NCBI GenBank assembly: GCA_035624455.1
Contig: DASPRM010000103.1
Location: 1 to 59,288 of the forward strand
Reading direction: 5' to 3'
DNA length: 59,288 bases
Source of the DNA: Terriglobales bacterium
Lineage (GTDB): Bacteria > Acidobacteriota > Terriglobia > Terriglobales > Acidobacteriaceae
Of this stretch, positions 1,160 to 25,480 are shown piece after piece (within the stretch, counting starts at the first letter, position 1; every line of letters begins with the position of its first letter). The notes beneath the pieces are model-generated. The model ran no database searches, was not told the DNA's origin, and saw only the letters and a list, made by a program, of their open reading frames with translations. The position numbers and the translations under genes were made by a program.

Positions 1160-3088
1160 ATGAAGTCCGTCATCGTAGGGACTGCCGGACATATCGATCA
1201 CGGCAAGACCGCGCTGGTCAAGGCGCTGACGGGGATCGATGCCGATCGCCTGGAAGAGGAAAAGCGGCGGGGAATCACCATCGATATCGGCTTTGCCCAT
1301 CTTGAGCTGAAAGCCGAGAACGGCGAATCTTTGCGTTTGGGGTTTGTAGATGTTCCCGGCCACGAGCGTTTCGTGCGCAACATGCTGGCGGGAGTCGGGG
1401 GGATCGATGTGGTGCTGCTGGTGGTTGCGGCTGATGAGGGGATCAAGCCGCAGACCGTCGAGCACTTCGACATCTGCCGTTTGTTGGCGGTACAACGCGG
1501 AATCACCGTGATCACAAAAGCGGATACGGTGGATCGCGACACTCTTGACGTGGTCCGCCTGGAGCTGGAGGAGTTCCTGCGAGGCTCCTTTCTTGACCCT
1601 GCATACTCGCTCATGGTGGCCGTCAGCTCCCTGACTGGCGCCGGGCTGGAAGATCTGAAACGTGAACTGGCGAAGGCAGCGCTGGAGGTGCCGGCCAAGG
1701 ACTCCACCGCCCTGCCGCGGCTTCCGATCGATCGCGTGTTCACCATGAAGGGATTTGGGACGGTGGTGACGGGAACCCTGATCGCCGGCACGGTGAAGAA
1801 GGATGAAGAGCTGGAAGTGTTTCCTTCCGGGCGGCGCGTTCGCGTCCGCGGGGTACAGGTGCACGGTCAGGCGGCCGCGGAGGCTATCGCTGGGGAGCGC
1901 ACCGCACTGAACCTGATCGGAGCGTCTGTCGAAGAGCTCGCGCGAGGCATGACCCTGGCAGTACCGGGCCTGTTTCACACTACCCGCCGGCTGGACGTGT
2001 CGCTCTCGTTATTGCCCTCTGGCAAGCCTCTTCGCAATCGCGCGCGCGTTCACCTGCACGCGTACACCAGCGAGACCATTGCCACGGTCGTGCTCTATTC
2101 CAATCAGCCGATGCAACCCGGGGAGAGTGGCTTCGTGCAATTGCGGCTGGAAGAGCCGGTGATGCTATTGCCTGGCGACCATTTCATCCTGCGTCAGTTT
2201 TCTCCGGTAGTGACGATCGGCGGCGGCGTGGTTGTCGACGGGTCGCCTCTGAAAGGCGGACGCCGCAAAGCCTTGGTCGATCCAGCAGGCGGATCACTGG
2301 ATTTGCTGATGAAGGGCTCGCGGGAGCAAGTGCTCGCAGCGCGGGTGGCGCGCCGGGGCACTCAAGGATTGCCGCTGGCGGACATCATCGGGGAGACGGG
2401 ATGGCCACCCTCGATTGTTGCGAGCACGGCGTCGGCGCTGGTCTCTCCTAAAGCTGCTCCGGAGCTGAAGCTCGTGCGCACTGGCAGTGTGCTGCTTTCG
2501 CAGAATGCATTCGATCGAGCAACGAAGGAAATGATGGCGGCGGTTTCTGCCTTTCACGACCAGAACCGGCTGGTTGAGGGCATCAGCAAGCAGGAGCTGC
2601 GCGAGAGGCTGCAACTGCCGGCTGACGTGTTCGCGGGCGCGCTGGACCACCAGGTCAAGCAAAAGAAGCTCGAGGTCGTGGGAGAGCTCGTTCGCGAAGC
2701 CGGCCGTGGCGTGGCAATGAAAGATGAAGAGGCGGAAGCAAAAAGAACCATCGAGCAGGCCTTCGCGAGTGCAGGTTTGCGGGTTCCCGCGCTCAAGGAT
2801 GTAATGGCGGGATTGCCGGTCGATAAAATGCGGGCGCAGAAGATTGTGACCCTTCTGCTGCGCGACCGCGTGCTGGTGAAGGTTTCCGACGAACTGGTTT
2901 TCCACCACTCAGCGCTCGAGGAGCTGCGTAAAATGATGGCAACCTACAAGTCGAAATCGGTCAAGATCGATGTGGCAACCTTTAAGGATCTGATCGGACA
3001 GACGCGCAAATATGCGATTCCGTTGCTCGAATATCTGGATCGGGAACGCGTCACCAAGAGAGTTGGCGATGAACGAGTGATTCTGTAG
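1160..3088 (+). CDS. selB: Selenocysteine-specific translation elongation factor SelB
   Basis: A 642-residue GTPase that carries Sec-tRNA(Sec) to UGA codons marked by a SECIS hairpin. G1 is [19 protein letters not shown] at the N-terminus, the switch region reads [16 protein letters not shown]3 is DVPGHERF and G4 is ITKAD. EF-Tu-like beta-barrel domains follow, and the last about 250 residues are the winged-helix repeats that bind SECIS RNA. Length fits a full SelB. Its presence means the organism decodes UGA as selenocysteine, which bears directly on the UGA-containing gene at 24182. selA, selD and selC are not seen here. The DinB-like gene follows after 14 bases, probably in the same transcript. 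Confidence 0.96.
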
Positions 3089-22697: not shown

Positions 22698-24029
22698 TCA
22701 GGCGGCGCGTGCGACCGCAGCAATCTGCTTCCACCAATTCTCGAAGGCTTGTAACGCACGCTCACATTGCAGATGATGACGGTGGCTGCGGTCGCGGACT
22801 CTCTCCTCCAATGGCGGGAGGAGATCGAAGGTAATGTTGGCGGGCTGAAAATTCCTCGGGTTGGCGTTGGCTATGTAATGAACCAGGGATCCAAATGCGC
22901 TGACAGGCGGTGGTGGGATTGGCTCGGAGTCCTGGGTGAGCATGGTTGCGTACACTCCAGCCATCAACCCGGTAGCAATGGATTCGACATAGCCTTCGAC
23001 GCCGCAAATCTGCCCCGCAAAGAGCACGCGCGGATGCGCCTTCATCTGCAGCGCCGCGGTGAGGAGAGCCGGTGAGTTGATATATGTGTTGCGATGAATT
23101 TGCCCGTAACGCAGGAATCTGGCGTTTTCCAGCCCCGGAATCAGACGCAATACACGGGCCTGCTCGCCATATTTCAGGTGATTCTGAAAACCGACGATGT
23201 TGTAGGAATCCGCTCGCAGGTTCTCCTGCCGCAATTGCACCGCCGCGTATGGCGGCTTGCCGGTGCGGGGATCCTTCAGGCCCACCGGCTTCATCGGGCC
23301 GAAGCGGAGTGTGTCGCGGCCACGGCGCGCTATTTCTTCGATCGGCAGACAGCTCTCAAAATAATTCAGCTTCTCCCAAGTGTGACCCTCGACCGCCTGG
23401 GCCGCCGTCAGCGCATCGTAAAAACGGTCGTATTCGTCCTTGGTGAAGGGACAGTTGATGTAGTCCGCCGATCCTTTATCGTAGCGCGCTGCCAGATAGA
23501 CGCGCGACATGTCGATGGAGTCGGCTTCCACGATCGGGCTGATGGAGTCGTAGAAGAAAAGATGAGAGTGCCCGGACAGGCGCGATATTTCCTCGGAAAG
23601 GGCAACTGAGGTTAGCGGGCCTGTGGCGATGATGGTGATGGCAGCGTGCTCGTCGATATTTGTCACCTCTTCGCGATGCACGCGGATCAGCGGCTCGCTC
23701 GAGATCGCCGCGGTGACCTTTCTTGCAAACGCATCGCGATCCACCGCCAAGGCATGTCCGGCGGGAACCTGGGCCTCGAGCGCGACCTGCATGAGCCCGG
23801 AGTCCGCGAGGCGCATTTCTTCTTTCAAAAGCCAGGGCGCGCTATCAGGGCTGTCGGATTTGAGGGAATTAGAGCAGACCAGCTCAGCGAAGTAAGCGCT
23901 CTGATGCGCCGGAGTAGATCGCACTGGCCGCATTTCGAAGAGATCGACCGCAACTCCTCGGCGGGCGCACTGCCATGCTGCCTCTGATCCGGCTAGTCCG
24001 GCGCCGACGACCTTCACTCTGGTGCTCAT
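22698..24029 (-). CDS. trmFO: Methylenetetrahydrofolate-tRNA-(uracil-54-C5)-methyltransferase
   Basis: A 443-residue FAD enzyme that makes ribothymidine at position 54 of tRNA with methylenetetrahydrofolate as carbon donor. Family markers: the FAD-binding N-terminus VKVVGAGLAGSEAAWQ, FEMRPVRSTPAHQS, the LVCSNSLKSDS segment with its catalytic-region Cys, and the C-terminal GVEGYVESIATGLMAG. Start at 24029 (MSTRVKVVG). It is divergent from the selenoprotein gene, and a good -10 element lies about 30 bases upstream. Confidence 0.96.
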   Translation of the reverse strand: MSTRVKVVGAGLAGSEAAWQCARRGVAVDLFEMRPVRSTPAHQSAYFAELVCSNSLKSDSPDSAPWLLKEEMRLADSGLMQVALEAQVPAGHALAVDRDAFARKVTAAISSEPLIRVHREEVTNIDEHAAITIIATGPLTSVALSEEISRLSGHSHLFFYDSISPIVEADSIDMSRVYLAARYDKGSADYINCPFTKDEYDRFYDALTAAQAVEGHTWEKLNYFESCLPIEEIARRGRDTLRFGPMKPVGLKDPRTGKPPYAAVQLRQENLRADSYNIVGFQNHLKYGEQARVLRLIPGLENARFLRYGQIHRNTYINSPALLTAALQMKAHPRVLFAGQICGVEGYVESIATGLMAGVYATMLTQDSEPIPPPPVSAFGSLVHYIANANPRNFQPANITFDLLPPLEERVRDRSHRHHLQCERALQAFENWWKQIAAVARAA

Positions 24030-24064: not shown

Positions 24065-24181
24065 CGAACAGGATTAGGAGCGGAACTTAGGTGGAAGTTC
24101 AGTGATAGATTTTCCGCGACCCAGGCGACCTCTTGCGAGTCTCATCAGGGGCGCGAGTAACCAGAAAGGATATCGATATCT

Positions 24182-24709
24182 ATGTCCCGGATCTCCTATG
24201 TCGAGCCGCAAAATGCCAGCCCTGAAGTACAACAGATATACGAGCACCGTCTGGGGGGAAAGCCAGGCAATATCTTCAAGATCATGGCTCACCAGCCTGC
24301 GGCCCTGACTGCTTTCCTGGCGTTTTACGCCAGCGCGGGCAAGACCCTCCCGAGGCGCCTGTACGAGCTGGTTTACATACGCGTTTCCATGCTCAACCGC
24401 TGCCACTATTGACTGCAGCATCACCTTGCTTCGTCGAAGCGAGCTGGCGTGACGCCGGAAGACTGGCAGGCGTTGAAGGATCCCTCTTCCTCGAGCTTTA
24501 CGGATGCAGAGAAGACGGCTCTCGCCTTTGCCGAAAAGCTCACTCGCACGCCGTGGGAAATTGGTGACGCAGACATCGCATTGTTAAAAAAGCATTTGAG
24601 CGAGCCGCAGATTGTGGATCTGGACTTGCTCATTGGCGTGATTAACCTTACGAACCGCTTCACCGATCCCCTGGGAGCAGAGCTGGAAACACCGCCGGAG
24701 AAGATATAA
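24182..24709 (+). CDS. AhpD-like selenoprotein (carboxymuconolactone decarboxylase fold) with in-frame UGA
   Basis: Read with UGA at 24410-24412 as selenocysteine, the gene gives 175 residues. Before the UGA: MSRISYVEPQNASPEVQQIY to YELVYIRVSMLNRCHY; after it, in the same frame: LQHHLASSKRAGVTPEDWQ to the stop at 24709. The join recreates the AhpD motif CxxCxxxH as C74-H-Y-U77-L-Q-H-H81, with the upstream Glu62 of ELVYIRVS also conserved. AhpD proteins are thiol redox partners or peroxidases, so a CxxU site fits a redox enzyme. A hairpin with a GUC loop sits 12 bases after the UGA, and selB is at 1160. A ribosome site (AGAAAGGA) precedes the ATG; no ribosome site precedes the GTG at 24449 that would be needed for a separate downstream gene. 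A nonsense mutation is the alternative. Confidence 0.85.
24421..24452 (+). promoter_or_regulatory. Bacterial SECIS-like hairpin for selenocysteine insertion
   Basis: Just after the UGA (24410-24412), CTTGCTTC (24425-24432) pairs with GAAGCGAG (24436-24443) around a GUC loop: 8 pairs, one of them G-U. A lower stem TCAC (24421-24424) with GTGA (24449-24452) may extend it across a 5-base bulge. The loop G-U lies 21-22 bases after the UGA, within the range known for bacterial SECIS elements, whose apical G and U contact SelB. Confidence 0.75.
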
Positions 24710-24850: not shown

Positions 24851-25480
24851 TTATTTCGCCTCTTTTTGCATCTCGTCGATGAGATTGAAGAGTTGCTTGC
24901 GGTCCACCACTTCGACAAAAGGTGGCCCGCTGCGGTTGTTGCTGACCACATAGATGGTCGGGGTGTGCTGAATTCCCAGCGCCGTGCCCTTGTCCTTGTC
25001 GGCGCGTACCGCATCCGCTAGCTTGCCCTGCGGATCGACCACGAAGGGGAGACTCATCTTGTGCTCCTGCGCGAACTTCTCGACAAAACTGCGCAGCTTG
25101 TCTTTGGTGACCTGGGCCTGGTTGCTGTAGATGTACAGGCGGAAAGCGCGTTCCAGATCGTTGGTCTTGGTGCTCTTGCTGCGGAAATAGTGGGCATAAA
25201 CCGAGGCGTCGAATGCCCATTGATGCTGGGGCAGGGGGAAGTCATATATCACGAGTGGAATCTTGTAGGTTTTTTCGGCCTGATCCAGCAGCGGCGCCGC
25301 CCGGCCACAGTCAGGACACTCCAGGTCGGCAAACTCCACCAGCGCCACCTTGGCTCCTGCGGGAGGCCGCAGCAGGGTTGCCGCTACCGCCGCATTCTGC
25401 GCCCGCAGGGGTGGGGAGCTAACCACAGCCAAAAGCAAAAAGATGAGAAAAAGAACAGGACGGAACCGTACAGTTTTCAT
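24851..25480 (-). CDS. Exported DsbA-like thiol-disulfide protein
   Basis: A 209-residue exported protein with a thioredoxin fold. The signal peptide is about residues 1-27 (MKTVRFRPVLFLIFLLLAVV then SSPPLRA). The active site is C55-P-D-C58 in FADLECPDCGRAAP, and the cis-Pro loop is HTPTIYV near residue 173. This layout matches DsbA/DsbG-type proteins that oxidise or isomerise disulfides in the periplasm. It converges on the selenoprotein gene. A redox partnership between the two is possible but they would be in different compartments. Confidence 0.88.
   Translation of the reverse strand: MKTVRFRPVLFLIFLLLAVVSSPPLRAQNAAVAATLLRPPAGAKVALVEFADLECPDCGRAAPLLDQAEKTYKIPLVIYDFPLPQHQWAFDASVYAHYFRSKSTKTNDLERAFRLYIYSNQAQVTKDKLRSFVEKFAQEHKMSLPFVVDPQGKLADAVRADKDKGTALGIQHTPTIYVVSNNRSGPPFVEVVDRKQLFNLIDEMQKEAK

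Follow-up and report, generated by a model that had tools for sequence, protein, structure and literature searches.

The window analysed here, a stretch of 59,288 nucleotides from a soil acidobacterium, contains on its plus strand a single frame (24182-24709, stop codon included) that runs from an ATG at 24182 to a TAA and encodes 175 residues with one internal TGA. This sole in-frame TGA is codon 77 (24410-24412, in the context MLNRCHY-U-LQHHLASSK). Translating it as a residue yields the motif C74-H-Y-U77-L-Q-H-H81, an AhpD-type CxxCxxxH in which U takes the second Cys position, and an earlier sequence-only reading that had proposed exactly this frame and motif was therefore borne out. A Shine-Dalgarno-like purine-rich stretch, AGAAAGGA, was seen by eye at 24163-24170 (+), 11 nt 5′ of the ATG. 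On the minus strand lies a divergent conserved neighbour, trmFO (GidA family, 22698-24029), assigned by profile match and comparison. The gene for the Sec-specific elongation factor, selB, which had also been reported from this window, is indeed present at 1160-3088 (+), with 353.8 bits against a cut-off of 242.25, and here is 21 kb away. Adjoining the ahpD-like gene on the other side (24851-25480, minus strand) is a gene for a DsbA-like thioredoxin-fold protein with a CPDC motif and a signal-like N-terminus, which was matched in no other locus of our set within the flanks examined.

The joined protein matched the Pfam CMD family (PF02627) over residues 39-118, thereby spanning the UGA (E 2.7e-16, 59.7 bits, cut-off 23), and homologues aligned with it across residues 1-175. 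Therefore, the frame is not a chance read-through. It also exceeded the cut-off of the NCBIfam AhpD core domain TIGR00778 (38.9 bits, cut-off 27.8) and with these two domains and the CxxC/U-x3-H motif belongs to the CMD/AhpD-core superfamily. The TIGR01926 peroxidase-related enzyme family was missed at 70.9 bits (cut-off 81.8), a cut-off that a distant paralogue, L068, surpassed with 93.6 bits. Seven positions were invariant in a 49-row alignment, these being G26, E62, C74, Y76, C/U77, H81 and R159, and an AlphaFold2 model built on 49 aligned rows predicted a helical fold with a pLDDT of 95.9. This model had 37 PDB matches at E≤0.001, namely AhpD-like, peroxidase-related, CMD or related uncharacterised chains and Bmp8. 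The best fold matches were 2prr, Pseudomonas aeruginosa PA0269 (2ijc, 2o4d, 7xw1), Deinococcus radiodurans DR1765 (6k40), 2oyo and 3c1l, with the debrominase Bmp8 (6ohi, 6ohj) ranking lower. By sequence, too, PA0269 came out as the closest protein with a solved structure (E about 1e-15); it and DR1765 share about 26-35% identity with our protein in the fold alignments, and PA0269 has Cys in place of Sec. The AhpD of Mycobacterium tuberculosis (1knc, 1gu9, 1lw1) has the same CMD fold but is a weak fold match, with E values from 0.43 (1lw1) to 1.6, and the protein scored 19.3 bits against the cut-off of 191.95 for true AhpD (TIGR00777).

We sought the state of codon 77 among relatives. An initial contig scan returned four Acidobacteria/Terriglobia MAG relatives, with TGA at the same codon in one and TGC in three. 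We searched 200 genomes of the GTDB family to which the window belongs; matches at E≤0.001 occurred in 183 of them and a close copy (at least 54% identity) in 40, one of which is the genome of the window itself. Together with the four MAG relatives these 40 make up 44 close loci, in which codon 77 is TGA in 17, TGC in 26 and TGT in one. Cys homologues that cross the UGA, which the sequence-only reading had looked to for support, are thus common, and no relative that we compared ended at the UGA. Four pairs of loci encode identical proteins (L016/L031, L017/L039, L018/L047 and L019/L051), leaving 40 distinct proteins (16 Sec, 24 Cys); the 16 close TGA loci other than the window's represent 15 distinct proteins from 14 genera. 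Moreover, we sampled 30 distant paralogues (32-40% identity), of which 26 have TGA and 4 have Cys at codon 77; the sample comprised the ten best-ranked rows (6 TGA, 4 Cys) and twenty rows picked for TGA, such that 26/30 is not a population frequency. The only other stops seen in the matched stretches are two TAA codons, one at residue 20 of L055 and one close to the end of L085. L055, from genome G014, is a TGA-form close relative whose frame is otherwise open. A tree of the 44 close loci and four distant ones (48 rows) requires at least six changes of the Sec/Cys label, two of which are forced by well-supported branches. A class-wide search at E≤1e-40 found the gene in 6 of 299 genomes, including the window's and all belonging to its family, the kinship of most match-free genomes being unlisted.

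The sequence-only reading had also noted a hairpin 3′ of the UGA. We located this at 24425-24443 (+) by folding and comparison, as an 8-bp stem with a GUC triloop (24433-24435), CUUGCUUC-GUC-GAAGCGAG, whose loop G at 24433 lies 20 nt past the UGA. Folded alone, the segment 24400-24470 did not reach significance (z -1.42, equalled by 19 of 200 shuffles) and an Rfam scan of the window returned nothing at the gathering score. Single-sequence folding was therefore rejected as proof of a SECIS, the z-score being too weak, and comparison was used instead. What supports the hairpin is comparison, in that TGA genes retain the stem and Cys genes do not. Each of the 17 close TGA genes forms a stem capped by a triloop that starts with G exactly 20 nt past the UGA (GUC in 16, GGC in one); 132 of their 136 pair cells hold standard pairs, the inner seven pairs are complete in 16/17 and all eight in 13/17. 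By contrast, the close Cys loci have standard pairs in 116/216 cells and a complete stem in 0/27. Distant TGA loci show 182/208 paired cells, a GGC loop in 26/26, the inner seven pairs complete in 25/26 and all eight in 5/26, versus 7/32 cells and 0/4 complete stems for distant Cys loci. The one distant TGA gene in which the stem is missing is L080. Prevailing pair types of the distant TGA stems differ from those of the close set at pairs 1, 3, 4 and 7, for example from C-G to U-A at pair 1 and from U-A to C-G at pair 3. When the stem centre was slid over ten offsets, pairing never exceeded 61% for close TGA loci or 50% for distant ones.

The amino acids do not force this stem, since only 64 of 41,472 possible synonymous sequences for LASSKRA (0.15%) yield it, and six Cys loci with identical LASSKR residues (L017, L038, L039, L044, L048 and L052) form 5-6 of the 8 pairs. 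According to those parts of a 2026 review on which we draw (PMC13188914), bacterial SECIS elements have a loop of 3-9 nt, a stem of 4-16 bp, a spacing of 16-37 nt, a G in the first two loop positions and an MFE of -7.5 or below. The window's hairpin falls within these published limits, with 3 nt (GUC), 8 bp, 20 nt and -17.4 kcal/mol for the 47 nt past the UGA. Comparison across TGA and Cys genes thus supports a candidate SECIS at 24425-24443. Five of eight further rows carry the GGC triloop at +20; the inner seven pairs are complete in four of these, and one forms six of the seven. L113 and L115, which have TGA and fall into a third group of AhpD-like genes marked by a GCPFU motif, show no triloop stem at +20, and a hairpin with a 5-nt loop was seen by eye near the same place. 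Another of the eight, L114 (genome G189), is a fetched stretch without a tblastn match. Other AhpD-like groups of this family, separate and distant (L068-L097, L109-L112 and L116), likewise have a UGA at the second Cys and, at +20, a hairpin that differs in sequence and has a GGC triloop. Scanning the window for frames combining a UGA and a hairpin gave four candidates, including that at 24410, the other three being judged by eye.

Besides selB, the genome of the window (166 contigs, completeness 97.68) contains selA (557.8 bits), selD (359.8 bits) and a tRNA-Sec (66.4 bits) whose anticodon is UCA by ARAGORN, a second RF01852 match above the cut-off being a tRNA-Ser. The selA, selD and selC genes, whose absence would have told against the sequence-only reading, are therefore all present. 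The genome's selD (G000:C95:34543-35478, L021) has an in-frame TGA of its own, which we considered as an internal SECIS template and rejected because no triloop hairpin forms at +20 in its predicted fold; hence the hairpin is not common to the selenoprotein genes seen in this genome. In the close clade, Sec and Cys forms cannot be told apart by selA, which is over the cut-off in 16/16 TGA and 22/24 Cys genomes. Among the matches listed, selA is over the cut-off in 40/42 TGA-bearing genomes versus 77/158 other genomes (Fisher p 4.5e-9, relatedness ignored), the TGA position having been verified, in one copy or more, for every one of the 42 except G189. The two TGA genomes lacking selA, G119 and G184, both carry a tRNA-Sec (63.1 and 64.9 bits) and selB, and thus an assembly gap at selA is likely. 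In 18 genomes (e.g. G160:C12, G081:C4 and G122:C39) selA was matched in two same-frame pieces near model position 136-140, which suggests a short insertion in SelA.

Taken together, these data indicate that codon 77 is very probably read as selenocysteine, in a 175-residue AhpD-core (CMD-fold) thiol/selenol oxidoreductase. The sequence-only claim that the UGA encodes selenocysteine is supported by TGA/Cys alternation in relatives, by the conserved SECIS-like hairpin and by the sel genes of the genome, and the assignment of Sec77 in C74-x-x-U77-x-x-x-H81 to 24410-24412 draws on the frame and these relatives. By the established bacterial mechanism, SelB-GTP bearing Sec-tRNA-Sec would dock at the 24425-24443 hairpin and would deliver Sec once the UGA reaches the ribosomal A site. 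Comparison shows that lineages switch between Sec and Cys at this codon, with the hairpin present or absent accordingly.

A nonsense mutation in a pseudogene, or a TGC/TGT miscalled as TGA, would produce the same codon, and the fragmentation of the assembly into 166 contigs, the excess of Cys among close homologues (27/44) and the additional TAA of L055 would each suit such an origin. However, 16 other close loci and 26 of the 30 sampled distant paralogues have TGA at this very codon, the hairpin is kept in all of those TGA loci except L080, where the stem fails, and both the frame and the catalytic residues downstream of the UGA are conserved, making a defect or an error highly improbable. 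We hold it equally improbable that the UGA is a true stop, with the downstream part translated by coupled re-initiation. Such coupling could be read into the UGAAUG found in 7 of the 17 close TGA loci and the UGAUUG found in one, but 9/17 lack both AUG and UUG at this point. In the window's copy a CTG follows the UGA, and from there no ATG, GTG or TTG comes in frame before the GTG at 24449, which lies beyond the active site. Moreover, a split would part C74 from H81 where the Cys homologues are single chains, and the complete stem is confined to TGA genes. Least probable of all is that the UGA is read as a residue other than Sec through genome-wide recoding or a suppressor tRNA, since 4 of 13 inspected genes of the window, trmFO among them, terminate at TGA and the genome has a complete sel set with a tRNA-Sec(UCA). 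Ordinary gene callers would probably split the ahpD-like gene, which the joined reading corrects.

The surroundings of the gene were compared by distances between matched stretches, which are not gene ends. Of 40 genomes with a close copy, 35 had a selB row and 29 had selB and the gene on one contig. In 27 of these 29, selB is convergent and less than 3 kb downstream of the ahpD-like gene (13-2060 bp between matches), its matched 3′ end lying within about 130 bp of that gene in 16/27; in the remaining two, the window's genome and G015, the distance is 21 kb and 17 kb, respectively. Five of the 40 had no selB row (G154, G028, G035, G055 and G040), including two genomes with close TGA copies, G154 and G028, in which there was no selB at E≤1e-60. 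In G035, a partial selB was nonetheless seen beside the gene (L044). Divergent trmFO within 3 kb was found in 30/30 genomes with both genes listed on one contig, the trmFO counts covering the 150 listed of 181 matching genomes. A GNAT acetyltransferase matched in the available flank of 19/44 loci. The window's own locus is rearranged, as trmFO is still adjacent, selB has moved and is reversed, and there is no GNAT match.

Searches for selB and trmFO that included genomes without the gene placed these observations in a different light. The two are co-directional and less than 6 kb apart in 28/32 same-contig genomes without a close copy, as close as 22 bp, and in 18/20 with one. Therefore, we replaced a plain linkage of ahpD to selB by the observation that the ahpD-like gene occupies, antisense, a space inside a selB-trmFO pair that exists also without it. 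The pair without ahpD may represent the older state. By hand count selB is adjacent in 11/16 Sec versus 16/24 Cys genomes, and a tie between adjacency and the Sec/Cys state was rejected. That the antisense position is itself functional, transcription toward selB tuning the supply of SelB and so coupling expression of the enzyme to Sec decoding capacity, seems unlikely; were it true, the linkage would have persisted in lineages where Cys replaced Sec.

As regards function, E62, C74, U77 and H81 correspond to the Glu, Cys, Cys and His that we take to form the AhpD active site, in which His132 presumably stands at the position of Tyr76 here. AhpD is described, in the portion of PMC8945050 that we drew on, as reducing organic peroxides directly or passing electrons from lipoyl proteins to AhpC. 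Since the active sites correspond and AhpD has these roles in peroxide reduction and electron transfer, we infer a selenol-based peroxide/disulfide reductase. C74 and U77 would be the redox pair and E62 and H81 the proton-relay residues, with a selenenylsulfide formed during the catalytic cycle. In such a cycle the product probably, if with some reserve, reduces organic or hydrogen peroxides or a protein disulfide. The same selenoprotein might instead be no peroxidase, and we tentatively entertain a disulfide reductase or electron carrier, or a Bmp8-like reductive enzyme: the CMD-fold debrominase Bmp8 is among both sequence and fold matches, most fold matches are uncharacterised 'peroxidase-related' proteins, and even the best match to M. 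tuberculosis AhpD is weak. Against this stands the spacing E-x11-C-x2-U-x3-H, presumably that of AhpD.

AhpD-like CxxU selenoproteins as a kind are already known. They were counted in genomes in 2006 (PMC1794560) and, as 'AhpD-like 1/2', in the GOS marine survey (PMC2398784), and are tabulated in PMC13188914 under TIGR01926 'AhpD-like protein' and PF02627 'CMD-like protein', as far as the sections of these papers available to us go. With the tabulated proteins, as given in those sections, ours shares the CMD domain, the CxxU with Sec at the second Cys and the frequency of Cys homologues. What is new is an acidobacterial-family clade below the TIGR01926 cut-off: the three proteins of the clade that were tried scored 63-78 bits against 81.8, the genome matches at E≤1e-40 all fall in one GTDB family, and the clade is linked to selB/trmFO, unlike the tabulated kinds. 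Two NCBIfam families, NF053654 'YciW-related (seleno)protein' and NF041238 'AhpD_rel_CFYUT (seleno)protein', are likewise AhpD-related and named for Sec/Cys forms, but were matched with 60.4 of 310 and 37.4 of 175 bits, respectively. We found no description of the selB/trmFO linkage in those parts of the literature on AhpD-like or acidobacterial selenoproteins, selB and trmFO that we consulted.

In summary, a clade within one acidobacterial family alternates between Sec and Cys forms, mostly at one locus and with a SECIS hairpin to match. Through the selB-ahpD-trmFO arrangement, a decoding factor is tied to one of its clients in a concrete way that can be tested. Moreover, the alternation provides a natural series for testing why lineages keep selenocysteine.
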